A stretch of 33,271 nucleotides of DNA, taken from positions 1 to 33,271 of the forward strand of contig JANXWY010000423.1 of NCBI GenBank assembly GCA_025350905.1, in the 5' to 3' direction. Below, in pieces: positions 2,937 to 25,711 of this stretch (the stretch's first letter is position 1; the number at the start of each line of letters is the position of its first letter). A program made the position numbers and the translations under genes. Under the pieces are notes generated by a model that saw nothing but the letters and a program-made list of their open reading frames with translations, searched no databases and was not told the DNA's origin. This DNA comes from Verrucomicrobiota bacterium (GTDB lineage: Bacteria; Verrucomicrobiota; Verrucomicrobiia; Limisphaerales; JADLHS01).

Positions 2937-5900
2937 ATGAAGCAGCCAGTGAAGACCATTCAACAACCGCCCGTGACCAATTCCCGCCGCCCAGAGGACG
3001 TCGTCCTTGCCCGACCGTCGGCAAGCCAAAATTCCATGAACCAGAGACAAACCGTGAAGTATTTTATGAACCCAAATTCCTCCAGACTATTTTTTCAAAA
3101 GGCTGCTTTGTGCCTGGCCGCGCTCCTTGCGGCGGCGGCGGCCAAGGCGGCCTTGACGTTGACGGTCGTCGATGACGCCGGGGTGCCCGTCCCGAATTTC
3201 CGTTGGATCCTTCAAGAGGACAACTCGGCGCCGGGAGTGCCCAACGTGCCAACGAACAACACCGTCTCGATCGTTGCGCACAAGAGCGACGCCCGGCCCC
3301 TGGCGGCCGGCCAAGCGACCAGCAGCACCTGGCCCATCCGCGTACCCAAGTTCACGCTGCCGAAGCTGGTGCCAGACGGCACGGTGATCGCGGGCCAGAC
3401 CAATCCCTCCTACGAGGACAACTACCTAAACACTGCTTATTTTGCGGACCCCGATCCCAGCCAACGCTACGTGATCGAGGTGATGGTGCCCGGCTTTTCG
3501 ATGGGCGGACAATTAGTCGCCGCCGGCCAGACCGCCGTCAAGATCGTCCTCAATCACAACCCGCTCCCGACCTCGCAGGTTTCGATCCTGGTCTTCCACG
3601 ATAATAATCCAATCAATAATGAACCTGATGCCGAAGAACAGGGATTGGCTGGGTTTCGCGTTTCGTTTTTCGACCAACTCGGCGGACCGTTCATCCAGGA
3701 TGCATATGCGAACCCGATCGGGACGACTTATTTGCTCAACCCGGACGGAACGTATCAACTTGATTCCGGCGGCGCCCCGATCGTGGATAAGGCCGGTAAT
3801 GGCTTTGTCTATACCGATAAGGACGGCAAGGCTCTGATCAAGAATATGTGGAACGCCAAGTTCGGCGTGCAGGTCATTCCGCCCACGGGTGAGAACTGGA
3901 ACGGCGGGCATGCCTCAATGAAAGCCGATGGCTACAACTGGCAGAGCTCCACCATCGAAGGCACGCCCTTCATCGACGCTTGGGCGCCGGCCAATGGCGC
4001 TCGGGTGTTCATCGAAGGTTGGGGCGCGGGGTCTTATCATGTTTTCTTCGGCTTCGTGGATCCGGCCAAACTGCCGGGTGTTCCCAAGCCCACCGTGGCA
4101 ACCGGCCCGGGAGTGAATGTGACCGGCACATTGCGCTATAACCACTACGGTCGGCCGCCCCACACCGCGATTATGGCGAGCGGGCCGGTCGTGACGGATG
4201 GCTGGGTCGGTTTGAACGCCTCAGGCGCGGGTGGGCCAGGCTACTATGTTGCTCCCTGCGACCCCGAGGATGGAACATTTACCATCACCAATGTTCCCCC
4301 GGGCACCTACGACCTGGTGTCCTGGGACCGGCCGCTGGACTCCATCTTCAATACCGTGACCATTACCGTGCCGCCGGGTGGAACTTATAATCTGAACGAT
4401 GTCTTCATGTTCCGTTGGTTCGGCACGCTGCAAGGCAGTGTCTTCTACGACAGCGACGGCACGGGCTTCCCGCAAGACGCCGCGCACGTGGACAAGGAGA
4501 AGATCCCTGGAATTCCGTTGAACATCCGCTTCCGGGATGGAACGATTTACCAGTCCACTCAGACCAAAGTGGATGGCAATTACTCATTCACTGAAGTCTT
4601 TCCCTTCTTCAAATGGCTGGTGGCCGAGGTTGACAATCGCCGCTGGAAGGCGAGCGGTATGACGGCTGTGGTGGATGACGGGGGAGTGATCCCGCCGGAT
4701 GCGGGATGGACCACCCCGTCTGGAAACGCCCGCAATCCCCAGCCTCAGTTTATGGTGAACCCGGCGGATGGTACTCTCACTACCACGCCAATTCCCAATC
4801 CGAATACGGGCAATAACCTTTCGCGCACGCAGACAAATGCCAGCCCGGCGGAACCAGTCCTGACTCAGGCTCTTGGCTTATACCATAGTCAGAATAGCGA
4901 GATTGACTGGGGGAAGGCCAACTATGGTCCGGGCGAAAGCGGTGGCATCTCCGGCAGCGTGGCCTATAACAACACCCGGGCGGAATCGAATCCGCGTTAT
5001 GCGGTGCAAGAACATTGGGATCCCGGTGTGGCGCGGGTCCAGGTGACCCTTTATGAGTTTGAAACCAATTACGCCGCCCTAGCCGATGCCAATAAAAACG
5101 GTAAACCGACGGTTTACGGCAAGCCCGCCGATCTCAATCTGTGGAAGATCAAGCGCCAAGGTGCAAGCCCTGGCGATCGGCTTCCCCGGCTCGCCGACGT
5201 GGACAATTATCCCTTCGACTGGACGCATCCTGCGCCCGGCCATCCTCCAACCCGCGGTCCGGAGGACGTAGACCAAGATGATCTGGCGCATACACTCTAT
5301 GACAACCTACAGCCATTCAACCCCGGCGATGCCATTCAAATTACCCACACGGACAGTTGGGATGATGACGTTGCCGTGAATGCCGCCCCGGGACACTTGG
5401 ACGCCAATGGCTGGCCGTCGGGTACGCAGCAGGCGCAACCGCCAACAATTTTGGGCCGGAAGGTCATCGGCAGCGACAACATTGCAACCTTTAACCAGGT
5501 CCGCCCCGGCGTGTTCGATGGCGCCTTTGTCCTGAACTCCTATTATCCAGGGGGAATCGCCAGTCACAGTGCTGAGCAACCGAATCTGCCGCCCGGGGAT
5601 TATATTGTCCAAGTCGCGCCGCCGCGGGGTTACCTGATCCAAACCGAAGAGAGCCGGAACATCGTCTTTGGCGACGCCTACAAGCCCAGCAAGCTGGACA
5701 TCCCGGCGGAGTGCGTTGGTGACTTCCACCTGGTGCCGGCGAACTTGAGCCTGTTCAACGACCCGGACCATGCGTCGCCCTCGGATTTCGCCAACCAATG
5801 GCGACCCATGGCGGACCGCAAAATGGTAACGGTAGTGGAGAGCCGGAATGCGCCCTGCAACTTCCACGTCTACACCGAAGTACCCAAAGCCGCCCGCGTG

Positions 5901-8900
5901 GTTGGTCTGGTGATGAACGATCTGTCCGCTGAGTTTGATCCCAGCAATCCGAATTACGGTGAGAAGGAAGGTCCGGGTTGGGTTCCGATCTCCTTCCGTG
6001 ATTGGGCCGGCAACGAAGTGGCGCGGACCTACGCTGATGAATTCGGTTCGTATGAGGCCATGCTGCCGTCCACTTATAATGCGGCGGTCCCTTGCCCCAG
6101 CGGTTTCGCCCCGACCATCCTCACGGTCATCTTGAATGATCCCACCATGGTGGACCCGTTGAATCCGAATGGCCCGCGCATCCCGGACCCGAATTTCAAC
6201 CCGGGCTTCACCACGGGGCCGGTCCCGTTGGAATACTTCCCCGGCAGCGTTAATTATGCAGACACGCCCATTCTCCCGATCGGCGCTTTTGTGGGCACGC
6301 CCAATAAGACACTCGACATCGAGCCGCCGAGCGGAACGCCCGTTATTAAGAACGTGTCCGGCACGGTCGTTAGCGGATATGCCGGACCATACGTGGCAAC
6401 TAAAGGGGCAGCGGGCGATTTGATAACGATCAGTTCGTTGGGACTCACACCGGTAACTGATCCGAACTACACTCTCCATGGAAACACGAGCAAGGTTATG
6501 CGCGATTACGGCTTTGGTGCGACGAAGGGGACCGGCAACGTCACTCTGAATGGCGCCGTTATCCCAACTGTCAGTTGGAGCGATGCGAGCATAACGTTTA
6601 AACTGCCCCCGACGTTACCTGCCGGCTCAACGACGCCCGGCAGCGCCAATTCCAGGGAATGGCAGCTAATGGTGAAGCGCAACAATTCGCTTACCACACC
6701 GATTGGCATCACACTTACCTATGAACCGAATGCAGCGAGGGTACACATGGTAATCCCCGTCGACCCGAACACCATTGCTGCCGGCGTAAACACGACCCAA
6801 ATCCAGGACGCCGTGGACGCGGCTGGCGATCGTGACTTGGTCATCGTTCCCGGCCTCAAAGCTGATGGCAGCGCTCTCTGGCCTTGGAATGAGTACGTCA
6901 TCCTGCACAAACCCGTACGGCTGCAGGGTTCGGGTTACAGCACGCTCATCAACGGTACGCCCGACCCGGAAATCCGGCTGGCGGCCTGGCATGATAAAAT
7001 CAACGCCTTGTTGGGTGAGGATCCGTTTCTGGCCAATGAATGTCCGGGTGTCCAAGTAATTGGGCAACACACCAACCGTAATGGCGTGGTCGTTGACGCC
7101 GGCTTCGGGACTGGTCGTGCCCGCATCGATGGATTCAATATCAAGAGCGCGATCCACGGCGGCGGCATCCAGGTCTACACCGAAGCCCACAATTTGCGCA
7201 TCAGCAACAATCGGATCACCGGCAATCGGGGTTCGTTCTCCGGCGGTATCTCCATTGGTATGCAGGATTCCGTCGATACCACCTATAATAACACCAACGT
7301 CTTGATTGAATTCAACCAGATCCTCAAGAACAGCAGCGGCAACGGTGCCGGCGGCATCGGCATCTATACCGGCGCCCGGGATTACAAAGTCCGGAACAAC
7401 TACATCATGGGTAACTTTGCCACCAGCGACCCCGGCGGTATCATCGGGGCCTCCGGCTTCGGCGCCGGTGGTGGTGGTATCGGTCATGAAGGTCTGAGTC
7501 CGGGCGGCTTGATCGCCAACAACGTCATCGCTTTCAATGAGGTATACTTCGGTTATTCCTCGGGCGGTGGTGATGGCGGCGGCATCTACATCAGCGGCGA
7601 GGCCGATGGCTCGAATGGTTTGGGCACGACCGGCTCCGGTTCGGTGACCATTATCAACAACCTGATCCAGGGGAATCTCGCCGCCGCCGGACTTGGGGGT
7701 GGCATCCGCCTGGCGGGTGTGAATGGCCCGGACGTGGCGACCAACAACACCGACTCAATCTATTGGCACAAGATCAAGATCTATAACAACATGATTGTGA
7801 ACAACGTCGCCGGCTACTCCGGCGGTGGCATCTCGCTCCAGGACGCGATCAATGTCGATATTGTCAACAACACCATTGCAAACAATGACGCGACCGCGAC
7901 GGCGCACTCAGCCTTCGTCGCCGATCCAAACGTATCGGACCCGCAGGGTGCGGGCGTAGTCAGCCATCAGAATAGTGATGCGTTGAATACGGCGTTGGCT
8001 GGCCATGCGCCTCTGTATTCGCGGCCCGCCATGATTAACGACATCATCTGGCACAACCGGTCGTTCCACTTCAGCTTTACGGTTGCCGGCATCCCTCCCA
8101 CTATCGGCGATGTGCTCAACCAGGAGCCGACCAACAATACCAAAGGCTTGTTGCCTGATGTTTCGACAACGCCTGCGGTGTACGCGGACGTCGTGGTCGT
8201 CGGCGGCGGCAATATCCCGCTCACCACTTGCACCACTTCAACCTCTGGGGGTACTCCGAGCTTCGTGACATCGTATTCGAACACGCTCTACACGGCCATC
8301 GTGTTTGACGAAGCTGGCAACAACATCTCGGTGCGGATGGATCCGATTGGTTTGTATCTGCCCACCATCAGCACCAGCACTGCTGTAACAAATCGTGGCA
8401 ATTATCATCTCAACACTAATTTGCGTCCTGGGACATCGGTTAGCTCGGTCGCCGGATTAGGGACTGATTTTGACGGAGAAGCCCGTCCCGCCGCGAGCGC
8501 GACGACAGATATTGGCGCGGACCAACGCGGTGCAGCGACGGCGTCAAGCATCGTGCCGCCGCCAGAAGCAGGCACGTTGAACGTTGATATCGTCAGCGGA
8601 TTGTTGCCGGACGTCACCGCCACTCCCGGTGCTGCCGGTGCGGTTGAAGCGAATCCATACGATCCACCGGGCGCGGCGGTCCAGCCCCCGCCAATCAACC
8701 CGGTTTGGATGACCAGCGATCCCGGCACCGCGAACCTTCCATTGTTCGTGAATGCCGACCTGTTCAGCCTGACCACGTTTGCCTTGCGACTGCAGGCTCA
8801 GACGCCTCCGGTGACCGGCCTTGGCGCCTTGAAGGATCCAGTGGCCAGTTATATCTATAGCCATCTCCGGCCTGGAACGGCCGCCCGCCCCGGATCGCTG

Positions 8901-10499
8901 CTCCTGCTCGCCGCGTACACGGGCGGGGCCGATGCCGCGCTGTTCGATGCCTTGATTGCCGATCTTAATATTATGCTAAAAGGCAATTCCATCTATGCCG
9001 CGGTCAACGGGCACGCAGGATATACTCCGAGTGACCGGACAACCACGCTGCTTCCTGGGGCGACTCCGTTTCATGCCAACACCTTCGCCGGTGTGCTCCT
9101 GAATCGCTCGGTCATCCAGGATGCCTTCACTGAAATCCGGCGTTGGTATGATCCGCAGATCACCTACATGCATCTGGTTTGTGGTGACGGATTCAGCGTG
9201 ATGGCGGATGGCACCGAGCTTTACATCTTCGGCTTCTCGGATCAAACCGCGGTCGCGAATAACCCGCACAATGTCACGACCGTTGAAACGGCAACTGCCA
9301 CGGCCAGCCTCAACAGTGCTGGAGCTGTCAGAGAAATCAATATTGATACTCGTGGTAACGGTTACATTGTCGCGCCCGACGTGACCCTGAGTGGTGGCGG
9401 CGGTAGCGGAGCGACCGCTACGGCCACCATTAATAATAATGGACGAGTCAGAGACGTTACGGTGGTAAGTGGTGGCTCGGGCTACACGAACGCGCCAGAT
9501 GTGGCCTTCAGCTCGCCGGCCGCCCAAGGTCCGGACCAGGTGTTTGCGCCAGCGTTGGCCAACGCCACGATTGCAGCGCCGACGATTGTCGTCAATCAGG
9601 ACCAGGATTTCCATCTGGACCTGTCCAACGTCGGATTCGCGTTCCGGCCGGACTTGTTCGACCCGCACACGGTACACTTCCACGGTTTCCCGCAAGCCGC
9701 GCCGATCTTTGATGGAATGCCGCTGGCCTCAGTCTCGGTGCTCGAAGGTGCCACGCTGCCCTACTATTACAAGGTGCAGGTCGAGGGCACTTACTTCTAC
9801 CACTGCCATGTGGAAGCCACCGAGCATATGCAACAAGGCATGATCGGCAATCTCTGGGTGGAGGCACGCCAGAACAAACTCGCCGTCGGCGCGCCGCTCG
9901 CGCACCTGCCGACCGGTAAGGGCTCGACCCACCAAGCCGGCTATCGCTATGCCTATAACGACGGCGATGGGTCCACCGAATTCGATGTCGAATTCCCGTT
10001 GCAGATCACTGGTTTTGACCACTACTTCCACGACCAGGAAATCGGCATCCAGCCGGTCGCGTTTGCCACCATGTTTGACACCTACCCGTTGCTCAATGGC
10101 CGCGGTTACCCGGACACGGTCAAAACGACCACGATCGTGAACAGCTTGGGGAATGAAAGCCAAAAGGTGAATGCACTGGTGGCGGCGAAGCAAGGCCAGC
10201 GGATCCTGCTCCGGATTTCCAACGTCTCGGAGACGGAGTTCGACACCCTGACCGTTCCGGGCATTCCGATGACGGTAGTGGGCAAGGATGCCCGGCTGCT
10301 CCGCGGGCCGGATGGCAAGAATCTCTATTATGGGACCACCTCGGTAACTCTGGGTGGCGGCGAGACCACGGATGTGATCCTCGACACCACAAACACCACG
10401 CCTGGCACTTACTTCGTGTATAGCGCCCGGCTCACCCAGTTAAGCAACGATCAGGAAGATTACGGTGGCCTGATGACTCAAATCGTAATTGCCCCATGA
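2937..10499 (+). CDS. Giant multidomain secreted protein: SdrD/Cna-B-like repeats, IPT/TIG-like domain, right-handed parallel beta-helix, C-terminal multicopper oxidase/cupredoxin module
   Basis: ATG at 2937 has an AGGA-type RBS just upstream (tcaggaaaacgtATG). Alternative ATGs at 3036 and 3066 lead directly into the signal peptide FFQKAALCLAALLAAAAAKA. The beta-helix runs roughly 6768-7960 (NNRITGNRGSFSGGI, IINNLIQGNLAAAGLGGGI, NNTIANN). The MCO motifs are HTVHFHG (~9666-9686) and YHCHVEATEHMQQGM (~9798-9845). Confidence 0.88.
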   Translation: MKQPVKTIQQPPVTNSRRPEDVVLARPSASQNSMNQRQTVKYFMNPNSSRLFFQKAALCLAALLAAAAAKAALTLTVVDDAGVPVPNFRWILQEDNSAPGVPNVPTNNTVSIVAHKSDARPLAAGQATSSTWPIRVPKFTLPKLVPDGTVIAGQTNPSYEDNYLNTAYFADPDPSQRYVIEVMVPGFSMGGQLVAAGQTAVKIVLNHNPLPTSQVSILVFHDNNPINNEPDAEEQGLAGFRVSFFDQLGGPFIQDAYANPIGTTYLLNPDGTYQLDSGGAPIVDKAGNGFVYTDKDGKALIKNMWNAKFGVQVIPPTGENWNGGHASMKADGYNWQSSTIEGTPFIDAWAPANGARVFIEGWGAGSYHVFFGFVDPAKLPGVPKPTVATGPGVNVTGTLRYNHYGRPPHTAIMASGPVVTDGWVGLNASGAGGPGYYVAPCDPEDGTFTITNVPPGTYDLVSWDRPLDSIFNTVTITVPPGGTYNLNDVFMFRWFGTLQGSVFYDSDGTGFPQDAAHVDKEKIPGIPLNIRFRDGTIYQSTQTKVDGNYSFTEVFPFFKWLVAEVDNRRWKASGMTAVVDDGGVIPPDAGWTTPSGNARNPQPQFMVNPADGTLTTTPIPNPNTGNNLSRTQTNASPAEPVLTQALGLYHSQNSEIDWGKANYGPGESGGISGSVAYNNTRAESNPRYAVQEHWDPGVARVQVTLYEFETNYAALADANKNGKPTVYGKPADLNLWKIKRQGASPGDRLPRLADVDNYPFDWTHPAPGHPPTRGPEDVDQDDLAHTLYDNLQPFNPGDAIQITHTDSWDDDVAVNAAPGHLDANGWPSGTQQAQPPTILGRKVIGSDNIATFNQVRPGVFDGAFVLNSYYPGGIASHSAEQPNLPPGDYIVQVAPPRGYLIQTEESRNIVFGDAYKPSKLDIPAECVGDFHLVPANLSLFNDPDHASPSDFANQWRPMADRKMVTVVESRNAPCNFHVYTEVPKAARVVGLVMNDLSAEFDPSNPNYGEKEGPGWVPISFRDWAGNEVARTYADEFGSYEAMLPSTYNAAVPCPSGFAPTILTVILNDPTMVDPLNPNGPRIPDPNFNPGFTTGPVPLEYFPGSVNYADTPILPIGAFVGTPNKTLDIEPPSGTPVIKNVSGTVVSGYAGPYVATKGAAGDLITISSLGLTPVTDPNYTLHGNTSKVMRDYGFGATKGTGNVTLNGAVIPTVSWSDASITFKLPPTLPAGSTTPGSANSREWQLMVKRNNSLTTPIGITLTYEPNAARVHMVIPVDPNTIAAGVNTTQIQDAVDAAGDRDLVIVPGLKADGSALWPWNEYVILHKPVRLQGSGYSTLINGTPDPEIRLAAWHDKINALLGEDPFLANECPGVQVIGQHTNRNGVVVDAGFGTGRARIDGFNIKSAIHGGGIQVYTEAHNLRISNNRITGNRGSFSGGISIGMQDSVDTTYNNTNVLIEFNQILKNSSGNGAGGIGIYTGARDYKVRNNYIMGNFATSDPGGIIGASGFGAGGGGIGHEGLSPGGLIANNVIAFNEVYFGYSSGGGDGGGIYISGEADGSNGLGTTGSGSVTIINNLIQGNLAAAGLGGGIRLAGVNGPDVATNNTDSIYWHKIKIYNNMIVNNVAGYSGGGISLQDAINVDIVNNTIANNDATATAHSAFVADPNVSDPQGAGVVSHQNSDALNTALAGHAPLYSRPAMINDIIWHNRSFHFSFTVAGIPPTIGDVLNQEPTNNTKGLLPDVSTTPAVYADVVVVGGGNIPLTTCTTSTSGGTPSFVTSYSNTLYTAIVFDEAGNNISVRMDPIGLYLPTISTSTAVTNRGNYHLNTNLRPGTSVSSVAGLGTDFDGEARPAASATTDIGADQRGAATASSIVPPPEAGTLNVDIVSGLLPDVTATPGAAGAVEANPYDPPGAAVQPPPINPVWMTSDPGTANLPLFVNADLFSLTTFALRLQAQTPPVTGLGALKDPVASYIYSHLRPGTAARPGSLLLLAAYTGGADAALFDALIADLNIMLKGNSIYAAVNGHAGYTPSDRTTTLLPGATPFHANTFAGVLLNRSVIQDAFTEIRRWYDPQITYMHLVCGDGFSVMADGTELYIFGFSDQTAVANNPHNVTTVETATATASLNSAGAVREINIDTRGNGYIVAPDVTLSGGGGSGATATATINNNGRVRDVTVVSGGSGYTNAPDVAFSSPAAQGPDQVFAPALANATIAAPTIVVNQDQDFHLDLSNVGFAFRPDLFDPHTVHFHGFPQAAPIFDGMPLASVSVLEGATLPYYYKVQVEGTYFYHCHVEATEHMQQGMIGNLWVEARQNKLAVGAPLAHLPTGKGSTHQAGYRYAYNDGDGSTEFDVEFPLQITGFDHYFHDQEIGIQPVAFATMFDTYPLLNGRGYPDTVKTTTIVNSLGNESQKVNALVAAKQGQRILLRISNVSETEFDTLTVPGIPMTVVGKDARLLRGPDGKNLYYGTTSVTLGGGETTDVILDTTNTTPGTYFVYSARLTQLSNDQEDYGGLMTQIVIAP

Positions 10500-10540
10500 G
10501 CGCCAATACTCAAAGAGACTCTCAACAAAAAAGGACTAAC

Positions 10541-11893
10541 GTGAAATCGACAATATTGAAACTGTGGACCGGGAGCTTGCTGAGCGGCCTGGTACTGATG
10601 GCGGGCGGCGCCCGGGCGGAATGGCTGAACCAAACGACCGCTGACGCCCTCGGCAACCACCTGGTGGATGGCGTCACCGGGCCCGCCTTCACCCTGACGG
10701 CCAAGGAAGGACACATTAGCACGGCGGAAGGCAGTGCTGTGTATATCTGGGGTTTGGCCACCAACTCCGGCCCGACGCAATACCCCGGGCCGACGCTGAT
10801 TGTGAACCAAGGCGATCAAGTCACAGTTACGCTCAACAACACGCTGCCGTTCCCGGTTTCCCTGGTCTTTCCCGGCCAGGTCGTTTCGGCCAGTGGCGGG
10901 AGTCCCGGGTTGTTAACGCAGGAGGCCACGACCGGTCCGGTAACCTATACCTTCATCGCCAGCCAACCTGGTACGTATGCGTATAATAGTGGCACGCGCC
11001 AGGATCTGCAGATCGAGATGGGCATGACCGGGGCGCTCATCGTCCGGCCGGCCGGTTTCAGTCCCAGCAACAAGGCCACTTGGAAAGGCTACAACACCAC
11101 GGATTCAGCTTTTGATCAGGAGTTCCTGTTCCTGCTCACTGAGATGGACCCCAACATTCACGCCGACGTGGAACACCAGATGTTGGCTAATCCAACTGCC
11201 AGCCCGGTGATCGATACGACTACGCACTTCGCGAACTATTGGTTTATCAATGGCCGGACCGCGCCCGACACGATGATGATTCCCGGCAGCAAGGCCCTGC
11301 CGGCTCAACCGTATGACGCCTTTCCGATGATGCACCCCAACCAGAATCTCCTCATGCGGATGGTGGGCGGTGCGCGCGATCCCCATCCCTTCCACCACCA
11401 CGCGAATCATGCCCGGAACATCGCGCGCAATGGCCGCGTGCTCCAAAGCACTCCGGGTGGCCCAACCGCTGATCTGTCGTATCTGACCTTTACCATTCCC
11501 ACCTACCCCGGCGAAACCACCGACGCCATCTTTACGTGGACCGGTGCGGGCCTGGGTTGGGACATGTATGGTCACGCGCCCGGATCGCCAACTACCCCGT
11601 ATAACGCGGTCACCAATCCCGACGGCCTACGCGCTAATGAAGATCCACACGACCACGGCAAACCCTTTCCGGTGGTACTCCCGACGGAACAAGACGTGGA
11701 TTTTGGTAAGTGGTATGGCGGCAGTCCCTTCCTGGGAACGCCCGCCCCTCTGCCTCCGAATATTGGCGGCTTCGATCCTACTGGCGCGTTTCTCTACATG
11801 TGGCATTCCCATGCCGAACGCGAAATCGTCAACAACAATGTCTTCCCGGGCGGCATGCTGACCATGCTGCTCATCGAGCCTTGGGCCAACTAA
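10541..11893 (+). CDS. Multicopper-oxidase-fold (cupredoxin) protein lacking cysteine; retains HPFHHHANH and HSH motifs
   Basis: Probable GTG start at 10541 (aaaggactaacGTG; ORF track start 10496). Signal peptide VKSTILKLWTGSLLSGLVLMAGGARA. Cupredoxin strands YPGPTLIVNQGDQVTVTLNNTLP and GTYAYNSGTRQDLQIEMGMTGALIV. His motifs DPHPFHHHANH and MWHSHAEREIVNNNVFPGGM. Confidence 0.85.
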   Translation: MKSTILKLWTGSLLSGLVLMAGGARAEWLNQTTADALGNHLVDGVTGPAFTLTAKEGHISTAEGSAVYIWGLATNSGPTQYPGPTLIVNQGDQVTVTLNNTLPFPVSLVFPGQVVSASGGSPGLLTQEATTGPVTYTFIASQPGTYAYNSGTRQDLQIEMGMTGALIVRPAGFSPSNKATWKGYNTTDSAFDQEFLFLLTEMDPNIHADVEHQMLANPTASPVIDTTTHFANYWFINGRTAPDTMMIPGSKALPAQPYDAFPMMHPNQNLLMRMVGGARDPHPFHHHANHARNIARNGRVLQSTPGGPTADLSYLTFTIPTYPGETTDAIFTWTGAGLGWDMYGHAPGSPTTPYNAVTNPDGLRANEDPHDHGKPFPVVLPTEQDVDFGKWYGGSPFLGTPAPLPPNIGGFDPTGAFLYMWHSHAEREIVNNNVFPGGMLTMLLIEPWAN

Positions 11894-11930: not shown

Positions 11931-14675
11931 ATGAACTACTCGAAAATAAAAATCGCAGCGCAGCTCTTGGTGGCCGGCGCCTTCCTAATCACCGCTGGCC
12001 AAAGTTATGGCGTCACGTACAACCTGCGCGCCGGCGTCACCAGCAAGACGATGCCCGACGGTACGGTCGTGCCGATGTGGGGCTTCGCCGACGATACCAC
12101 GGCCGGAGCGGGGCTGGGCACCGTCGTGGTTCCCGGGCCAGCGCTCACCGTGCCACCGGGCGATACCACCTTGACCATCAACCTCAATAATACCTTGCCC
12201 GAGGACGTTTCCATTGTCATCCCTGGGCAGTATGGATTTGTTCGGACCGCGAACGAATCCGTCGACAACGACTCGGCCGGTCCGTATGCGGGCCGCGTGA
12301 AATCCTTGGTGCATGTTGCGCCGGCGCTTGGCGGAAACGCCGCTTATACGTGGAACGGCATCAAGCCCGGAACGTTTCTATACCACAGCGGATCGCACGC
12401 GGCGGTCCAGGTGCAGATGGGCCTCTATGGGGCGATGACGGCGGTAGTTGACGCATCGCATGCTTATCCTGGTGTCGCGTTTGATTCCTCGGTTACGCTG
12501 TTATTCAGCGAGATCGATCCCGACGTGCATGCCGCGGTCGCTGGCGCCACTTACGGACCCGGTCCTTCATTCCAGGATGCCGAACTGGCAGCGGTGTCGG
12601 CCAGCATCTACGACGGTCTCCATGCCGCAACGGATCCGACGTATGCGTACCTTTATTCGCTTTTGGACCCTGACCTGCAAGCCAGCTTGCTGGCCGGCAC
12701 CGGTGACCATGCGGCGCTCGTCTCCACCGCCATCAGCGAATTGCTGGGTGGTTCTTCGATCTATAATCCCGACGTGATGCTGGACAGCATGCTGTCGGCC
12801 GCGACCATGGATGCGCTTTGGTCGGCTCCCGAAGTGAACCAGCCTACCTCGCCTGTTCTCAACAACGGCTTCATGGTTCGGTTGAATCGGCTGCTCTTGA
12901 CGGACGCACTCGCTACGGCCAGCCCGGCCGTGGTTTTGCCTCCCGTCAATACCATGACCAGCACGATCCGTTCGTATGCCCAGTATTTTCTCGTGAACGG
13001 AGAAGCTTACAATGGCATCATCGGCGCCGGCGGTAATAACATCTTCCCTAGTGCCGGTCTGCTACCCGGCAGCCGTGTCCTCCTACGGATGCTGAATGCC
13101 GGTATGGATTCGCATGTGCCCACGCTCCAGAACGGTGGCGACCTCCAGTTCGTGGCCGAGGACGGCCAGTTAGCTCCCTACCCACGAAATTCGTACTCGG
13201 TCTTTATGGCCGCCTTGAAGACGGTCGATGCCATCTTCGTGGCGCCAGCCCTCCCGGTGGGTGTGGCCTCGCAGCTTTACGCGGTGTCCGACCGTCGATT
13301 GGGATTGGTCAATGGAACGATGCCTCTCGGTGGGATGTTGGCCTACTTGAATGTAGGTGCGGCGGTAGTCCCAGTTAACCCAATGTTGGTGGTCAGTCCG
13401 CTGAATTTGAGTTTCACCGCGACCGTAGGTGGAGCTAATCCGGCCAACCAGACCTTTAACATTTCTAACGGCGGAAGTGGAGCGTTGAGCGGGGTGTCGG
13501 CGACGGTGGTAACGGGTTCGCCGTGGTTGACAACCTCGGGCGGCGCGGGCGTTGGGCCCGTGACCGTATCCGCAACCGTAGGCGCTCTCGCCGCGGGGAC
13601 GTATAACGGGACAATTTCCGTGGCCGCTACCGGCGACACCGGCGTCACTGGCAGTCCAAAAACCGTGAGCGTGAGCTTCGTGGTGGTCGCTGCCCCGGTG
13701 CTGGTGGTTGCGCCGACGAGCTTGACTTTCAATGCGGCATTGGGCGGATTGAATCCGGCCAGTCAGACATTCGACATTTCCAACGGAGGTGGCGGGACGT
13801 TGAGCGGGGTGACGACGACGGTGGTAACCGGTTCGCCGTGGTTGACAACGTCGGCCGGAGCGGGCGCGGGGCCCGTGACCGTGAGCGTGAACCTCGCATC
13901 GTTGCCAGTGGGTACGCAGCCGGGGACGACGGTCCCCGGAGCAATCACCGTGAGTGCCGCCGGCGTCACAGGTAGTCCGCAAACGGTGAACGTTAGCTTA
14001 AACCTCGCGGCCTTAAGCACTCCACTCATCGTGGCTATCGATACCCAAATCAACACCGGGGGCAATGCCAACGTGGGCACCACGCATGTGATGACGGGCA
14101 TACCAGCAGGGGCGCTGTTAGTGCTCACCACTCAAAACCAATATGATGGGGTTACCGCCGGTGAACAAGATTGCAATGTTACCAGCGGCGGCAACTTGAC
14201 CTGGACCAGGCGGGTTGATGCGGGTTCAACTTCCCATGGCGGAAGTGCGGAAATCTGGACGGCACCTATCCCAGCTGGTGGGGTGACTGGTGGCACAGTT
14301 ACTGTCCTGAGCCGATGGGGAACTGCCCGGGCTCAGTCGAGCGTTTGTTATGTAGTAACCGGTCAGGGCGGGTTCGCCGCCTTACCCGTCGCTGCCAATA
14401 CGGCCAATAATCAATCTGCACCGTCGGTATCTATTACCACCACGCGGGCGAACAGCCTCCTGTTCGGAGTTACATCGGACTACAATCATATCGACGGTTC
14501 GACCAGGACCTATCTCGACACCGCGACCGAACGGTTATACTTCAACCAGCCCGGCGTAACTACCGCATATCATTTCACCGCGCCGGCGGCGACCATTGGT
14601 AGCTACACCGAAGGCTTGACGGCCCCGACTGGTCAAAGCGCAGGCACGGCCGTAATGGAAGTCCGGCATCCATGA
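11931..14675 (+). CDS. Degenerate cupredoxin/MCO-fold protein with two BACON-like repeats and an uncharacterised ~210 aa C-terminal domain
   Basis: N-terminal VVVPGPALTVPPGDTTLTINLNNTLPEDVSIVIPGQ and GTFLYHSGSHAAVQVQMGLYGAM. Tandem LVVSPLNLSFTATVGGANPANQTFNISNGG / LVVAPTSLTFNAALGGLNPASQTFDISNGG. Signal peptide MNYSKIKIAAQLLVAGAFLITAGQSYG. Confidence 0.85.
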   Translation: MNYSKIKIAAQLLVAGAFLITAGQSYGVTYNLRAGVTSKTMPDGTVVPMWGFADDTTAGAGLGTVVVPGPALTVPPGDTTLTINLNNTLPEDVSIVIPGQYGFVRTANESVDNDSAGPYAGRVKSLVHVAPALGGNAAYTWNGIKPGTFLYHSGSHAAVQVQMGLYGAMTAVVDASHAYPGVAFDSSVTLLFSEIDPDVHAAVAGATYGPGPSFQDAELAAVSASIYDGLHAATDPTYAYLYSLLDPDLQASLLAGTGDHAALVSTAISELLGGSSIYNPDVMLDSMLSAATMDALWSAPEVNQPTSPVLNNGFMVRLNRLLLTDALATASPAVVLPPVNTMTSTIRSYAQYFLVNGEAYNGIIGAGGNNIFPSAGLLPGSRVLLRMLNAGMDSHVPTLQNGGDLQFVAEDGQLAPYPRNSYSVFMAALKTVDAIFVAPALPVGVASQLYAVSDRRLGLVNGTMPLGGMLAYLNVGAAVVPVNPMLVVSPLNLSFTATVGGANPANQTFNISNGGSGALSGVSATVVTGSPWLTTSGGAGVGPVTVSATVGALAAGTYNGTISVAATGDTGVTGSPKTVSVSFVVVAAPVLVVAPTSLTFNAALGGLNPASQTFDISNGGGGTLSGVTTTVVTGSPWLTTSAGAGAGPVTVSVNLASLPVGTQPGTTVPGAITVSAAGVTGSPQTVNVSLNLAALSTPLIVAIDTQINTGGNANVGTTHVMTGIPAGALLVLTTQNQYDGVTAGEQDCNVTSGGNLTWTRRVDAGSTSHGGSAEIWTAPIPAGGVTGGTVTVLSRWGTARAQSSVCYVVTGQGGFAALPVAANTANNQSAPSVSITTTRANSLLFGVTSDYNHIDGSTRTYLDTATERLYFNQPGVTTAYHFTAPAATIGSYTEGLTAPTGQSAGTAVMEVRHP
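13383..14005 (+). repeat. Two tandem BACON-like domain repeats (~315 bp period)
   Basis: The in-frame units starting at 13383 and 13698 both read LVV.P..L.F.A..GG.NPA.QTF.ISNGG.G.LSGV..TVVTGSPWLTTS.GAG.GPVTVS. Confidence 0.8.
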
Positions 14676-14996: not shown

Positions 14997-15461
14997 ATGA
15001 AACGCAATAATCATTTCCTTCTCGTTCTGACCTTTATGGTCGGTTTGGTCTCGGTCGCCAGCGCGGCTGAAAGCAGTAATTCTTTGGCTTCGGCAAGCGC
15101 GCTGGCTGCCACCAATGAACTCGCAAAAGTAGAGCAGCAATGGGGGATAAAATTCTCGGGTCTGTTTCTCTCGGCGGGTGGCAACATGGTGGACTTTCGG
15201 TACAAGGTTCTTGACCCGCAGAAAGCCGCTTTGCTAACGAAACCCGAACTGAAACCAATGCTATCAGATCAAACCACCGGGGCTAAGCTGGAAGTGCCCA
15301 CCTCCCCCAAGACCGGGCCGATGCGGCAGACCACCAAGCTCCCCGTCACCGGCAAAATATACTTCATGCTGTTCGCCAACACCCGCCATCACGTGAAAAG
15401 TGGTGACAAAGTGACCATCACCGCCGGGGATTTCAAGATTGAAAACCTCATCATTGAATGA
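14997..15461 (+). CDS. Small secreted protein, paralog of the 17445..18041 product
   Basis: Signal peptide MKRNNHFLLVLTFMVGLVSVASAA. Core WGIKFSGLFLSAGGNMVDFRYKVLDPQKAALL...TGAKLEVPTSPKTG...GKIYFMLFANTRHHVKSGDKVTITAGDFKIENLIIE. Confidence 0.85.
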   Translation: MKRNNHFLLVLTFMVGLVSVASAAESSNSLASASALAATNELAKVEQQWGIKFSGLFLSAGGNMVDFRYKVLDPQKAALLTKPELKPMLSDQTTGAKLEVPTSPKTGPMRQTTKLPVTGKIYFMLFANTRHHVKSGDKVTITAGDFKIENLIIE

Positions 15462-17444: not shown

Positions 17445-18041
17445 ATGTTACCAACCAAGCAAAATGAGACCGGGACCCGACCGGGATTTCTGATTGTGGT
17501 GACCTCCGCAGTCGTCTTACTGATTGGCGCGCTGTGGTACTTGAAGACCAGGCAGGATCATCCAGTCGAAACCATCGCCGAAACCGCGGTCGTGGAGACC
17601 CCGCCGCCGGCCCCGGTCTCGAAACGCGCCCTCCAAACCGCCCCGCCCGCGCCCCTTCCAATGGCCGAAACGCTGAATGCTCCGGTCAAAGCTGCGGTGA
17701 CGACCACCCTCGAAGACGGTTGGGGAATACAAGTCAGTAGTATGCGGCTGTCCATGGCTAACTCCATCGTGGACCTTCGTTACAAGGTACTGAACCCGGA
17801 GAAAGCGGCGCGGCTCGGCGACGGCAAGACTGCCGCCTACATTATTGATCGCGCCACGGGCAAGAAATTAAACATGCCAGCGCCACCCAAGGAAGGAGCT
17901 TTCCCGCCCACGTCGCATAAACTCGTGGCGGGGAAAATGTACTTCGCCATGGTTTCCAACCAAGGTGGCACTTTGAAAAGCGGCAGTCAGGTGACCGTGG
18001 TGGTGGGTGGTTCTGAAGCCACCAATCTTACCGTGGAGTAA
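17445..18041 (+). CDS. Membrane-anchored paralog of the 14997..15461 protein
   Basis: N-terminal TM segment FLIVVTSAVVLLIGALWYL and a Pro/Ala-rich linker. Core GWGIQVSSMRLSMANSIVDLRYKVLNPEKAARLG...ATGKKLNMPAPPKEG...GKMYFAMVSNQGGTLKSGSQVTVVVGG. Confidence 0.85.
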   Translation: MLPTKQNETGTRPGFLIVVTSAVVLLIGALWYLKTRQDHPVETIAETAVVETPPPAPVSKRALQTAPPAPLPMAETLNAPVKAAVTTTLEDGWGIQVSSMRLSMANSIVDLRYKVLNPEKAARLGDGKTAAYIIDRATGKKLNMPAPPKEGAFPPTSHKLVAGKMYFAMVSNQGGTLKSGSQVTVVVGGSEATNLTVE

Positions 18042-18047
18042 GCGGGT

Positions 18048-20054
18048 ATGACCAAAGTAAACCACACGAGCAACGTATTGATCACCTCGGCGCTCCTCGG
18101 CGCGGTGCTGCTTGGGGTCTGGCTCGGTCGAAGTTCGCGGGATGCGGTGGTGCGTTCGCCGGGCGGCGCGTCAAGCCGGGAAGCGCTGTTTTATCAGGAC
18201 TCGATGCACCCGTGGGTTAAGTCGGCAAAGCCCGGCAAGTGCAGCGTCTGCGGCATGGAGCTAACGGCGATTTACGAAGGTCAGCCGGGGTACAAGCTGA
18301 GCGATAATCTCGTCGCACTGAGTTCCAACAACATCACGGTCCTGAATGTTCAGACCGAACCGGTTCAGCGGCAGGAGGTGACCCGGACCTTGGAGGTGGC
18401 CGGTGCGCTTGAGGCTGATGAAAACCGAAAGACCGTCGTGGCCGCTCCGGCGGCAGGTCGAATTGACGACTTGACCATCAGGTTTCCCGGTGTCGAGGTC
18501 AAGGAAGGCGAACGCTTGATCACCTTTTATAGTCCGGAACTGACGCTCGAAAAGCGTCGGTTTCTCGTCCGGGCCCGCATGTCCGTTCAACGGGATCCGA
18601 CCGGTGGTCTGTCCTCCAAGTCGGTGTCGGATACCGACCCTTATTATAGTGACCTCGTTTCGCCGCAGGCGGGAACGATTGTCGAACGCAAGGTTTATAA
18701 GGGGCAATATGTTTCCGATGGGGAAAAAATGTTCACCATTGTTGACCTCTCGGTGCTGTGGTTTCGGTTTGATGTCTATGAGCAGCAGTTGCCCTGGCTG
18801 ACCCTGGGGCAAACGATCGATGTCACCGTGCCCGCGGCGCCTGGGAAGGTGCTCCCGGCTGTCATCACTTTCATCGAGCCGATGCTCAACGAAGCCACCC
18901 GCACGGTTAAAGTCCGGGCCGAGCTCCAGAATCCGCTGGTGGAACTCAACGGACGTAAACAACGCCTGCTGGGGCTGGGCATGTATGCCCAGGGAGAAAT
19001 TCGCGCCACATTGCGCAGCACATTGGCGGTCCCGCGTTCAGCCGTGCTGCAACCCGGGCGTTCAGCTTATGCTTACGTGGATAAAGGCAACGGCGTCTAT
19101 GAACAGCGTCGCGTCAAACTCGGGCAACAAGGCGATGGTTATTGGGAAGTGCTGCAAGGATTGGAGGCCGGTGATCGCGTGGTGACCTCCGGCAATGTCC
19201 TGCTCGATTCCCAGTCGCAATTTATGCACTCCCGCGACAAGGCCGAGCTGGCTATGGAGGACAGCCCGCAAAGTGCGGCGATGGTTATTTTATCCCAACC
19301 AGCCATGGTCCCCGGCCCCATGGTTGCCACCGAGGATCATAAAATGGAGCCCGACCCGATGCCGCCAATGACTCCGGCCGGGGACCAGCAAATGCCCGCG
19401 CCGGATCGAGTTGGCCTCGTTCCTACGTCCGCGGCCGCCAAGCCCGCTTATAACCCGCGCCATCCGGTCCAGCCGGCCGTTTCCGCCGCCAATCCGGGCT
19501 ATCGAAACTCGCGGATTGGACCCCACGACGCCGCCTTTGACGCTGCCTTCAACCGCGTGGCCGAACTGCGCTCCAGCGAGTTGGCGGAGCGCACCGCAGC
19601 CAAGGCTTCCCAACCTCTCATGCTGACTTCGCTGCAAGCGCAGGATCTCCAGGCCATCCTTGCGGCGGCCGATGAAGCCGGCGCGGCGTTGGCGGAGGAC
19701 AATCTGGAGAAATTCAAGCTCCACTTGGTGGCGTTGACCGAGGCGCTGACACCGGCGGCGAACAATTTCCCGGCCGCGAACTCCTTGAGCCCGTCCATCC
19801 AGTGTTTGATTCAGGCTTGTCAGCCGGCCCCGGCCATGGACCTGATCACAGCGCGGGCCCAATTCCTACCGGTGGGTGCGGCGGTGGCGGGAATGGCCGG
19901 CGAACTCAGGAAACAATCGAACTTCGCGGGATTAAAGGTGTACCACTGCGCCATGGCACCAAAACCAGGACTGTGGGTGCAAGCCAAAGGTCCGCTGCAC
20001 AATCCATTTTTCGGAGTGAAGATGCAGAATTGTGGGGAGGAAGTACTTCAATGA
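18048..20054 (+). CDS. cusB: RND efflux periplasmic adaptor (CusB-like) with N-terminal heavy-metal-binding domain and C-terminal DUF3347-like tail
   Basis: DSMHPWVKSAKPGKCSVCGMELTAIYE (HMBD-type), adaptor body VVAAPAAGRIDDLTIRFPGVEVKEGERLITFYSPEL and SPQAGTIVERKVYKGQYVSDGEKMFTIVDLSVLW, tail VYHCAMAPKPGLWVQAKGPLHNPFFGVKMQNCGEE. Confidence 0.9.
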   Translation: MTKVNHTSNVLITSALLGAVLLGVWLGRSSRDAVVRSPGGASSREALFYQDSMHPWVKSAKPGKCSVCGMELTAIYEGQPGYKLSDNLVALSSNNITVLNVQTEPVQRQEVTRTLEVAGALEADENRKTVVAAPAAGRIDDLTIRFPGVEVKEGERLITFYSPELTLEKRRFLVRARMSVQRDPTGGLSSKSVSDTDPYYSDLVSPQAGTIVERKVYKGQYVSDGEKMFTIVDLSVLWFRFDVYEQQLPWLTLGQTIDVTVPAAPGKVLPAVITFIEPMLNEATRTVKVRAELQNPLVELNGRKQRLLGLGMYAQGEIRATLRSTLAVPRSAVLQPGRSAYAYVDKGNGVYEQRRVKLGQQGDGYWEVLQGLEAGDRVVTSGNVLLDSQSQFMHSRDKAELAMEDSPQSAAMVILSQPAMVPGPMVATEDHKMEPDPMPPMTPAGDQQMPAPDRVGLVPTSAAAKPAYNPRHPVQPAVSAANPGYRNSRIGPHDAAFDAAFNRVAELRSSELAERTAAKASQPLMLTSLQAQDLQAILAAADEAGAALAEDNLEKFKLHLVALTEALTPAANNFPAANSLSPSIQCLIQACQPAPAMDLITARAQFLPVGAAVAGMAGELRKQSNFAGLKVYHCAMAPKPGLWVQAKGPLHNPFFGVKMQNCGEEVLQ

Positions 20055-20112
20055 CCGCAATCGATCACGGAACTGGGCCGATACACTGGCGATCGCCTGG
20101 GTTCCGTAATTT

Positions 20113-23100
20113 ATGATCAATCGCGTGATTAAATGGTCGTTGCGCAACCGGCTGATCGTGGTCTGTGGCGTCCTGCTGCTGACCGGTTGGGGGATCCATG
20201 CCGTGCGCCATACGGCGGTCGATGCCATCCCGGACTTGAGCGAGAATCAAGTGATCGTTTTCGCAGACTGGCCGGGCCGTAGTCCCCAAGAGGTTGAAGA
20301 CCAGGTCACCTATCCCCTCTCCGTAAACCTCCAAGGCCTGACGGATGTCAAGACGGTTCGGGCCTCCTCGATGTTTGGTTTCAGTTTCATCACCATTGTT
20401 TTTGAAGAGCAGGTTGACAATTACTTCGCCCGGACCCGGGTCTTGGAACGGCTGAACTACCTGGGTGATCATCTGCCGGCGGGGGTGGTGCCCAAGCTGG
20501 GTCCGGATGCCACGGGCCTGGGCTGGGTTTACCAGTATTATCTGCATGTCGATCCGAAGTTGTCGCCGAAGGCCGGCTATGATCTCTCGCAATTGCGCTC
20601 GTTGCAGGACTGGTTCATCCGCTACCAACTCAACGCTTTGCCCGGTGTAGCCGAAGTGGGCAGCATTGGCGGGTTTGTGCGTCAGTATCAAGTGGAAGTT
20701 TCGCCCGTCCACATGCGCACGTTGGGAATCTCGCTCGCCGAGGTGCTGGCCGCCGTCGAGGAAAGTAACCTGAATGTGGGCGGCAAAGTTATCGAAGAAA
20801 ACGGCATGGAATTCGTCGTGCGCGGAGTCGGCTTGGTCAATTCCGTGAGCGACTTGGAGAATATCGTCCTGAAAGAAAGTGGGGGTACGCCCATCTACTT
20901 GCGCGATGTGGCCACGATTCAGCTCGGGGGCGATTTCCGTCGCGGCGCGCTCGATGTGGATGGCCGGGAAGTGGTCGGCGGCGTCGTCGTCATGCGCAAT
21001 GGCCGCAATTGCCGGGACGTGATCCGTGCCGTCAAAGAAAAGATTGCCCAGATCACCCCCAGTCTCCCGCCGGGAGTGACCATCAAGTCCTTCTACGACC
21101 GAAGCACCCTGATTGACCGGTCGATCGCCACCGTCAATCGAACCTTGGTCGAGGAGATCCTCCTGGTCGCTCTCGCCCACATACTTTTTCTTTGGCACTT
21201 TCGCAGCATCATCATCGTGACGATCCCGTTGCCGGTATCGATTCTCTTTTCCTTCGTGCTCATGCGGTTGTTCGGCGTTTCCTCCAATATCATGTCGCTC
21301 AGCGGCATCGCCATCGCCATCGGGGTGCTGGTGGATGCCGGGATTGTGATGACGGAAAACGTGATCCGACATTGCGAAAGCCTGGAAGCCAAGTTGCCCG
21401 GCGGCGGGCGACTCACTCCCGCGCAAACCTTGCAGGCGACCCTTCAAGCGGCCCAGCAAGTCGGTCGGCCCATCTTTTTTGCGATGCTCATCATCATCCT
21501 TGCCTTCATTCCCGTATTCGCCCTGGCGGGACAGGAAGGGAAGCTATTCCATCCGCTCGCGCTGACGAAAACCTTTGCCATGACCGTCGCCACGGTCTTG
21601 GCCATCACCATCGTGCCCGTGCTCTGCACGTTTCTGGTGCGCGGTCCGTTTCGCCCCGAGCGGGAAAACTGGATCATGAAACGGCTGCTGCAGATTTACG
21701 ATCCAGTGCTGGATTGGGCATTGTCCCATCGGCGGACGGTACTGGGTTCGGCGGCGGCGCTGTTGGTCTTCGCCTTGGTCCTGGCCTTCGGCGTCCCGCG
21801 CTCCGTGAGCGCAGCCCTCGCCAGACACGGTTGGACTCAAGCCGCGCGGTTGGCTGGGGGAATGGGCAGTGAATTTATGCCCACCCTCAATGAGGGCAGC
21901 TTCCTGTTCATGCCCGTGCTGCTGCCGAGCACTTCGCTCACCGAAATCAAACGGCTCATCGCCTGGCAGGACACGGTTTTAAAGCAGGTGACGGAAGTGC
22001 AATCGGCGGCGGGCAAGTTGGGACGAGCGGATACGGCGACCGATCCCGCACCGGTCGAGATGATCGAAACCACTATCGAGTTGAAGCCGGAATCCCAGTG
22101 GCGACCGGGCATGACCCCCGAGAAACTTGTTGCCGAGCTTACCGAAAAGCTCAGTCAGGCGCCCGGCTATGTGCCCGGTTTGCTGCACCCGATCGAAGGC
22201 CGGCTGCTGATGTTGAGCACGGGCATCCGGGCTCAAGTTGGGGTGAAGATCTTCGGTGACAATTTGGAAGCACTGCAGGCGAAAGCATTGGAAATGGCGC
22301 AGATTCTTCGCGAAGTGCCCGGGGCCACGGGCGTGGTGAGTTCCCGCTCTCAAGGCAAGCCGTACCTCAACATCGAGGTGGATCGAGTGGCGATGGCCCG
22401 TTACGGCTTACGCGCCAAGTCCTTGTTGGATGTTGTCGAGACCGGATTAGGGGGCAAGAACGTCAGTACCACAATCGAGGGACGGCAGCGATTCCCCATT
22501 CAGGTCCGCTTTCAACAGGACGACCGGAACGAAATTGGTCGGCTCGGCGATGTGCTCGTGTTTACCCCGAGCGGGAAAGTCATCCCGCTGGGGCAGCTCG
22601 CCAAGATCAAACGTGTGCTCGGGCCGAGCGAGATCGCGAGTGAAAACGGGCGGCTGGAAGCTTTCGTGCAGGCGAATGTGCAAGGGCGCGATTTGGGCAG
22701 CTTTGTTCAGGACGCCCAGGAGCGGATTCGCAGCGGCCTCAAGTTGGAGCAGGGGATGACGCTGGAATGGGCGGGTCAATACCAGAACCAGCTCCACGCC
22801 CAGCGCACGCTGCGCTTGATCCTACCAGTGGTGCTCGGGATCATCTTTCTGCTGCTTTGCGTTGTCTTCCACTCGGCGAAGGAGGCCGCGCACATTATCT
22901 TGGCGGTGCCGTTTGCCCTGACGGGTGGTGTGTTTCTGCAGTTTCTGCTGGGCTATAATTTCAGCGTCGCAGTTTGGGTCGGTTATATTGCGCTCTTCGG
23001 AATCGCGATCGAAACCGGGATCGTCATGGTGGTATATCTCGAGGAAGCCTTGAAGAAAAAGCGCGCGGAACGCGGTCGCGCTTTCAGCCACGCCGATCTG

Positions 23101-23448
23101 CTGCAGGCGGTGAAAGATGGCGCGAAGCTGCGGCTGCGACCGAAAGTGATGACGGCCGCCACCGCCATTGCCGGACTGATGCCCATCATGTGGAGTACCA
23201 GCACCGGATCGGAAGTGATGCGCCCGCTCGCCACTCCGGTGATCGGCGGCATGGTGAGCAGTCTCCTGCACATCCTGGTGGTGACGCCCGTGTTATTCGC
23301 CTTCTTGCGTGAACGGGAGATGAAATGTGAAGGTCAACGCCTTGCTAACCCCGAGGCGACTCCCCCAGCGCCCAAGCGTTTCGGCCCCCGGCGGGAACGC
23401 CAACCGCAAGGCGCTTTAGGTGCCATCCCCGCCCGCGCACCCAACTAA
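20113..23448 (+). CDS. cusA: CusA/CzcA-family heavy-metal RND efflux permease
   Basis: PDLSENQVIVFADWPGRSPQEVEDQVTYPLSVNLQGL, GIAIAIGVLVDAGIVMTENVIRH, GSEFMPTLNEGSFLFMPVLLPSTS, GRADTATDPAPVEMIETTIELKPESQWRPGMT, RLLMLSTGIRAQVGVKIFGDN, PLATPVIGGMVSSLLHILVVTPVLF. Confidence 0.95.
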   Translation: MINRVIKWSLRNRLIVVCGVLLLTGWGIHAVRHTAVDAIPDLSENQVIVFADWPGRSPQEVEDQVTYPLSVNLQGLTDVKTVRASSMFGFSFITIVFEEQVDNYFARTRVLERLNYLGDHLPAGVVPKLGPDATGLGWVYQYYLHVDPKLSPKAGYDLSQLRSLQDWFIRYQLNALPGVAEVGSIGGFVRQYQVEVSPVHMRTLGISLAEVLAAVEESNLNVGGKVIEENGMEFVVRGVGLVNSVSDLENIVLKESGGTPIYLRDVATIQLGGDFRRGALDVDGREVVGGVVVMRNGRNCRDVIRAVKEKIAQITPSLPPGVTIKSFYDRSTLIDRSIATVNRTLVEEILLVALAHILFLWHFRSIIIVTIPLPVSILFSFVLMRLFGVSSNIMSLSGIAIAIGVLVDAGIVMTENVIRHCESLEAKLPGGGRLTPAQTLQATLQAAQQVGRPIFFAMLIIILAFIPVFALAGQEGKLFHPLALTKTFAMTVATVLAITIVPVLCTFLVRGPFRPERENWIMKRLLQIYDPVLDWALSHRRTVLGSAAALLVFALVLAFGVPRSVSAALARHGWTQAARLAGGMGSEFMPTLNEGSFLFMPVLLPSTSLTEIKRLIAWQDTVLKQVTEVQSAAGKLGRADTATDPAPVEMIETTIELKPESQWRPGMTPEKLVAELTEKLSQAPGYVPGLLHPIEGRLLMLSTGIRAQVGVKIFGDNLEALQAKALEMAQILREVPGATGVVSSRSQGKPYLNIEVDRVAMARYGLRAKSLLDVVETGLGGKNVSTTIEGRQRFPIQVRFQQDDRNEIGRLGDVLVFTPSGKVIPLGQLAKIKRVLGPSEIASENGRLEAFVQANVQGRDLGSFVQDAQERIRSGLKLEQGMTLEWAGQYQNQLHAQRTLRLILPVVLGIIFLLLCVVFHSAKEAAHIILAVPFALTGGVFLQFLLGYNFSVAVWVGYIALFGIAIETGIVMVVYLEEALKKKRAERGRAFSHADLLQAVKDGAKLRLRPKVMTAATAIAGLMPIMWSTSTGSEVMRPLATPVIGGMVSSLLHILVVTPVLFAFLREREMKCEGQRLANPEATPPAPKRFGPRRERQPQGALGAIPARAPN

Positions 23449-24722: not shown

Positions 24723-25711
24723 GCGCACCTAATTCCAGCCAGCAAGTGCTCGCCCGCGTGACCGATTCCGCTCGGGTGGTGGTGGACGGTGGGATGCACA
24801 AGCTGACCTTTCGCGCCATGAGTACCGAGTGCCGCGTGCATCTCCACGGGGTCACCCCGGCGGTAGCCGCGGCGTTTCTCGGCGAAGTGGTGCCGTGGGT
24901 CGCGGCCTTTGAAGCGCGCTACTCCCGGTTTATTCCGGACAGTTTGATCGGTGGCATCAATGCCGCCGCCGGGGAGCGTTGGGTGGAAATTGACCCCGAG
25001 ACGGAGCGGTTGTTCACCCTCTGCCACGAACTGGCCTTCTTCACCTGCGGCGCGTTCGATCCCACGGCCCTGCCGCTCATTCGACTTTGGAATTGGAAAG
25101 CGCAACCGCCCGTGGCGCCGTCCGCGGACGCCATTCGCGCCGCCCAGGAACTGGTGGGTTGGCATAAAGTGCAGCGCCGGCCGGGCGGCATTTTTCTGCC
25201 GCGCGCAGGCATGTGCCTCGACCTGGGGGGCATCGGCAAGGAATACGCCGTGGACATGGTCGTCGGCATGGCGCTGGAGCGCGGCATCCCGAATGTGCTC
25301 GTGGATTTTGGGCACGACGTGCGGGTGCATGGTCACGCGCTGGACAAGAAATTTTGGTGGATCGGGCTTGAGGACGCCAATCAACCCGGCCGTTGCTGGA
25401 CCGGCGTCGCCGTGCGCGACCATGCCGTCGCCACCTCCGGCGATTACATCCGCAACTTTCAAATTAACGGCCGCCGCTTTGGCCACATCATTGACCCGCG
25501 GACCGGTTATCCCGTGGACAACGGTTGTCACGCTGTCTCCGTCATCGCCCCGACCTGCACCATCGCGGGTATTCTTTCCACCACGGCACTCATCCTGGGC
25601 CCGCTGGAAGGCCTGCGCCTGATCGAAACCCATCCCGGTGCCGCCGGCGCCGTTACGACCAACCGCAATCGGGATTACACCCGGAAATTCCATGAATATG
25701 CCGCTCCTTAA
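24713..25711 (+). CDS. apbE: ApbE-family FAD:protein FMN transferase (divergent)
   Basis: LTFRAMSTECRVHLHG, FDPTALPLIRLWNW, CLDLGGIGKEYAVDMVV, VDFGHDVRVHG, AVATSGDYIRNFQINGRRFGHIIDPRTGYPVDN. Its start overlaps the DUF3570 stop. Confidence 0.9.
   Translation: MVLSAPNSSQQVLARVTDSARVVVDGGMHKLTFRAMSTECRVHLHGVTPAVAAAFLGEVVPWVAAFEARYSRFIPDSLIGGINAAAGERWVEIDPETERLFTLCHELAFFTCGAFDPTALPLIRLWNWKAQPPVAPSADAIRAAQELVGWHKVQRRPGGIFLPRAGMCLDLGGIGKEYAVDMVVGMALERGIPNVLVDFGHDVRVHGHALDKKFWWIGLEDANQPGRCWTGVAVRDHAVATSGDYIRNFQINGRRFGHIIDPRTGYPVDNGCHAVSVIAPTCTIAGILSTTALILGPLEGLRLIETHPGAAGAVTTNRNRDYTRKFHEYAAP

Follow-up and report, generated by a model that had tools for sequence, protein, structure and literature searches.

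The window, the whole 33,271-nucleotide stretch of Verrucomicrobiota DNA analysed here, carries on its forward strand a set of adjacent genes for probably secreted proteins that resemble multicopper oxidases (MCOs). The first of these encodes a giant protein (3066-10499; the frame is open from 2727 and 3066 is the likely start) with a signal-peptide-like N-terminus, in which an SdrD/beta-helix scaffold (H) and a subunit of MCO type (A) form one chain. The A module (9147-10499, about residues 2141-2590 of the giant) was delimited by Pfam and alignment. The first-pass annotation had given the C-terminal module a single cupredoxin domain, but Pfam recognizes two (Cu-oxidase_3, residues 2278-2382, and Cu-oxidase, residues 2428-2567), with ligands on the first only: domain 1 has those for a type-1 (T1) copper and for half of a trinuclear cluster (TNC), and domain 2 contains no ligand motifs in any of the 18 aligned A sequences. 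The two motifs quoted in that annotation were both located. HTVHFHG (9666-9686) holds the T1 His and the first HxH pair of the TNC, while HCHVEATEHMQQGM (9801-9842) holds the second HxH pair together with the T1 Cys, His and axial Met. The alignment shows no variation (18/18) in the HCH triad, in the axial Met, in the T1 His or in any of the three His of HxxHxHG; the T1 ligands correspond to H174, C220, H227 and M232 of domain 1 (alignment numbering). Between the N-terminal strand of A and domain 1, the window protein also has a glycine-rich insertion with GSGATATA/GGSGYT-type repeats (about 9336-9560), which is missing in all other aligned A sequences.

The second gene (10496-11893, forward strand) encodes B, a protein of 465 residues that, as claimed earlier, contains no cysteine at all. 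It overlaps the A gene by four bases (ATGA) in a different frame and opens with a signal-peptide-like segment of its own, as read from the sequence. According to Pfam and alignment, B has two cupredoxin domains, of which domain 1 is free of ligand motifs throughout the 19 aligned sequences and domain 2 carries half of a TNC. The four motifs first reported for B all lie within the gene. VSLVFPGQ (10856-10879) and AYNSGT (10979-10996) occupy, in the profile alignment, the positions of HxHG and HCH in A, with the ligands lost. DPHPFHHHANH (11378-11410) provides the third HxH pair of the TNC and aligns with the domain 2 motif HAxHxHG of the solved enzymes 3g5w and 2zwn, and MWHSHAERE (11798-11824) provides the fourth, aligning with HDH of the same structures. 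HPxHxH and HSH are invariant in 19/19 sequences, as is a remnant T1-position His within DPHPFHHHANH, and the T1 Cys is replaced by Ser in all 19. Domain 2 matches Cu-oxidase_2 in 18 of the 19 members. In one Thioploca MAG (L041, about 11000-11070) the B frame is broken before the HSH motif and resumes in another frame, either a sequencing error or a decaying copy.

The third gene (11931-14675, forward strand) encodes C, in which two degenerate cupredoxin domains (about 11985-13388), identified by Pfam and alignment, are followed by Ig-like repeats. The Pfam matches to Cu-oxidase_3 and Cu-oxidase lie above the cut-off in A and B and at the cut-off in C (Cu-oxidase_3 in B and C). No conserved copper ligand set is present in the alignment of C sequences, and the T1 His-Cys-His(-Met) set, invariant in A, is absent from both B and C. 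C is the least conserved of the three (mean identity 42%, against 55% and 53% for the other subunits) and often bears extra C-terminal domains, for example Ig-like or dockerin-like repeats. The dockerin-like repeats were seen by eye on C of two Geobacter MAGs (L045 and L046), and the H protein of L044 matches Pfam Dockerin_1 just under the cut-off; such repeats are possibly a mode of attachment.

Downstream of C, and also on the forward strand, lies the gene for a small protein, D (14997-15461), with no Pfam or NCBIfam match, which adjoins C in about 17 loci. It is followed by a peptidase of family C25 (15458-17377), replaced by an S8 subtilase in the non-verrucomicrobial loci; in the loci compared, a peptidase of one or the other family is often the next gene after D. 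A second D-like protein, membrane-anchored in appearance (17445-18041), was found again only in L031 and L028; it and D are homologous small secreted or anchored proteins, a family that accompanies C. Next come a CusB/CusA-type heavy-metal efflux adaptor and RND pump (18048-23448). These are shared with L031 only, so they lend weak support to a copper role, and their association with the operon is probably local. After CusBA, DUF3570, ApbE flavin transferase and TlpA/ResA-like thioredoxin genes stand in a row (23478-26201) and may form an extracytosolic redox cluster of their own. Elsewhere, an ORF with nine CxxCH motifs (multihaem-like) lies downstream of the operon in L035 (8296-10938), the sole multihaem candidate in the loci examined.

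How widely is this arrangement conserved? A search with B over 85,488 species genomes yielded 19 loci. Those hosts that carry a name are MAGs from Verrucomicrobia, Planctomycetes, Acidobacteria, Nitrospirae, Desulfuromonas, Geobacter, Thioploca, Myxococcota, Deltaproteobacteria, Gammaproteobacteria and Herbaspirillum. The order A-B-C holds in every locus with a long enough contig (about 20 loci): the protein directly upstream of B carries H[ST][VI]H[FW]HG and HCH..A.EHM, and C lies directly downstream. Orthologs of A or B commonly found alone would have spoken against a joint function, but in every locus whose contig spans both, the two genes are neighbors and never change their order. Profile searches of 146 relatives and 394 genomes of the phylum returned identical sets of A-positive and B-positive genomes, six in all (the window's, G026, G109, G310, G357 and G522). 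The C profile gives the same pattern among the 146 relatives plus one weak extra match, which is distant and partial (G135). The distance matrices of A and B correlate with r = 0.87, a value that operon co-inheritance would equally produce. The window's own genome holds a second, paralogous and full H/A-B-C-D-peptidase operon (L028, G000:C48:14000-33000), the B of which is 54% identical. Relatives of the FGE-sulfatase and 187-aa genes of the window lie on its flanks, so a larger block may have been duplicated.

The placement of the scaffold varies among the loci. H and A form one chain in the window and in five other loci (L028, L033, L034, L036 and L057). In nine more (L037, L039, L040, L041, L042, L043, L044, L046 and L058), H stands as a gene of its own just upstream of A, which in L039 and L044 is about 360-420 aa long. 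H is fused to C in L047, a Herbaspirillum MAG in which Pfam Cu-oxidase and SdrD_B lie on one chain. The proposal that one half of the oxidase is tethered to a beta-helix/SdrD scaffold is thus supported for the window locus but not as a universal feature. Such changes of fusion partner from lineage to lineage speak for a joint function of H, A, B and C.

A, B and C are mutually homologous across both domains (profile-profile hhalign, E 3e-32, 3e-52 and 4e-24), and the full-length homology of C to B accounts for the E of 3e-52. Against the PDB, the A profile best matches the type C two-domain MCO 3g5w (E 4e-22) and then 2zwn; the whole B profile also ranks 3g5w and 2zwn first, and that of B domain 2 finds 2zwn best and 3g5w as well, with HPfHtHG placed on HAxHxHG and WHSH on HDH. 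Two-domain MCOs build their TNC where domain 1 of a protomer meets domain 2 of its neighbor, and type C enzymes, which are trimers, have the T1 copper in the N-terminal domain (PMC13151041). The motif halves of A and B align one-for-one with the TNC halves of the solved type C enzymes, so that each protein may well carry half a cluster, as the first-pass annotation had proposed. The losses are reciprocal: in the profile alignment the motifs of A face VFPG and YNSG of B, and those of B face non-ligand residues of A. A complete eight-His set within a single chain, which would have undone the proposal, is therefore not seen, and the eight TNC His, as four HxH motifs, are reached only by A and B together, from A domain 1 and B domain 2. 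By the logic of the sequences, neither A nor B alone, as monomer or as homotrimer, would be able to build a TNC. The pattern is far beyond chance, for no ligand varies among the 18 A and 19 B sequences, which come from many phyla.

These observations are best explained by a secreted MCO that descends from a type C two-domain homotrimer and has A, B and C as its three subunits, a reading to which we assign a probability of roughly 0.77. The subunits would be exported by their signal-peptide-like starts and, by homology to the trimeric enzymes and because each is a two-cupredoxin paralog, would assemble as a ring of six cupredoxin domains, in effect a ceruloplasmin in three pieces. The invariant, mapped ligands would place the TNC where B domain 2 touches A domain 1, the latter supplying the T1 copper and four TNC His (HxHG and HCH) and the former the other four (HPxHxH and HSH), which would make A/B an obligate hetero-oligomeric enzyme. 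In MCOs, electrons from the T1 copper travel by a His-Cys-His bridge to the TNC, where O2 is reduced. As a TNC would form at no other contact of the ring than that of A domain 1 with B domain 2, substrate electrons that enter at the T1 site of A would be expected to take the same kind of bridge and meet O2 where A and B join. The ligand-free C probably closes the ring, and H, judging from its fusions and its neighborhood, probably serves as the extracellular tether of the enzyme. By default, an extracellular metal ion or a phenol may be regarded as the candidate substrate. Whether the operons represent a widespread, unrecognized class of heterotrimeric MCO with one catalytic center, mounted on beta-helices outside the cell, with which sediment bacteria oxidize metals or minerals extracellularly, is a far more tentative idea that we would currently bet against.

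Structure prediction bears on the folds more than on the assembly. For AlphaFold2, natural stops between in-frame genes were read through as residues (A-B-C of L044 and A-B of L039); MAFFT alignment with A-only, B-only, C-only and fused rows put the B and C rows on A, and the composition of the alignment was then checked. The A-B-C model (pLDDT 72, pTM 0.43) has as top Foldseek matches the six-domain proteins of factor Va and ceruloplasmin type and MnxG, at a TM of 0.22, and so backs the domains and not their arrangement. For A-B, modeled from a deeper alignment, pLDDT is 78 and pTM 0.61; the domains are folded, their arrangement is not fixed, and the model superposes loosely on consecutive ceruloplasmin domains (Foldseek TM 0.48, rmsd 8.5); the region of the HSH loop of B is mostly below pLDDT 60. 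Taken at face value, this ceruloplasmin-like order would keep A domain 1 and B domain 2 from joining and counts as evidence against the proposed contact. It is given little weight in view of the modest confidence of the model, the sequence-ordered aligner and the covalent linker, which obliges A to precede B.

The alternative that survives best, though we consider it unlikely, keeps A:B as a binary enzyme and makes C a separate partner, for scaffolding or substrate delivery, and no subunit of a ring. The lack of ligands in C, its low conservation and its frequent added C-terminal domains would fit such a role. However, C is a homolog of B over its full length and is never absent where the contig extends, and the parent enzymes are trimers (PMC13151041).

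Could A and B bind copper without sharing a cluster? In that case A would carry electrons as a blue-copper protein or store copper, and B would bind copper independently, the two being secreted side by side. Models that do not fix the A/B contact, together with the copper efflux genes cusB and cusA downstream in the window, leave room for this possibility, which nevertheless appears improbable. For an electron carrier the T1 ligands, four in number, would suffice, yet the TNC His (four each in A and B) are invariant across phyla and align with the TNC ligands of solved enzymes, and the CusBA linkage is confined to the close relative L031.

Lower still is the likelihood that the A:B interface holds a type-2 copper, as in nitrite reductases, and not a TNC. 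NirK is a homotrimer of two-cupredoxin subunits with a metal site between neighbors, the same inter-subunit geometry as would apply here, and B domain 1, searched as a single sequence, best matches copper nitrite reductases. Nevertheless, NirK has an HC motif and a single type-2 copper held by three His, whereas A has the invariant HCH with HxHG and B the invariant HSH with HxxHxH, making eight His of TNC type, the number of a TNC, on two proteins; moreover, the profile of B domain 2 prefers type C MCOs.

A decayed or mis-assembled single-chain MCO, broken by frameshift or fragmentation as the 4-base overlap in different frames might at first suggest, is ruled out by the same split and the invariant motifs in about 20 independent assemblies from many phyla, and that overlap, taken with the separate signal-peptide-like start of B, itself indicates that A/B is not one frameshifted gene.

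If the heterotrimeric reading is correct, it has consequences beyond this locus. Models of MCO evolution derive single-chain six-domain enzymes from two-domain homotrimers by gene triplication, with the loss of two of the three TNCs (PMC3600357). A, B and C would have arrived at that state by another path, in which the trimer diverged without fusion and kept one third of its active sites. They would also provide a natural obligate hetero-oligomeric oxidase, the activity of which could be switched by mixing subunits, and the many MAG annotations of A-B-C as incomplete or degenerate MCOs would need correction. In the open-licence papers searched, a weak basis for absence, no heteromeric, split or multi-subunit MCO of the A/B kind was found; the relatives that these papers describe are homotrimers if two-domain and single chains if six-domain.

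Among the known copper enzymes, the Mnx complex of Bacillus (MnxEFG) is comparable as a bacterial MCO that works as a multi-protein complex, and 9bxa is among the structural matches. MnxG by itself holds the entire MCO site, MnxE and MnxF being small unrelated subunits. Differently from Mnx, it is the catalytic cluster itself that would be split between proteins here. The six-domain MCOs (ceruloplasmin, factors V/VIII and bacterial MnxG) share with A-B-C the six cupredoxin domains and, as proposed here, a single surviving TNC, but they are one polypeptide and not three genes with signal-peptide-like starts of their own. The bacterial six-domain enzymes have their TNC between domains 2 and 3 and their T1 copper in domain 2 (PMC3600357), unlike A, which has its T1 site in a domain of the N-terminal type.

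The closest likeness is to the type C two-domain MCOs (Nitrosomonas 3g5w and metagenomic 2zwn). Each chain has two cupredoxin domains, A carries T1 and half-TNC ligands in domain 1, to which the T1 site is confined as in type C, and B carries HxxHxH and HxH in domain 2. In the type C homotrimer, however, each chain holds both halves and there are three active sites per trimer; with the halves on different paralogs and a third paralog lacking ligands, one site per A/B/C trimer is to be expected. For this reason the system is not filed as a member of type C, although it would work like one. The divided ligands are what would be expected if the chains of a type C trimer became different genes and one third of the sites were kept. 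To the first-pass idea of a divided cluster, which the sequence comparisons largely support, this reading adds C as a third, homologous subunit without ligands and the type C enzymes as probable parents.
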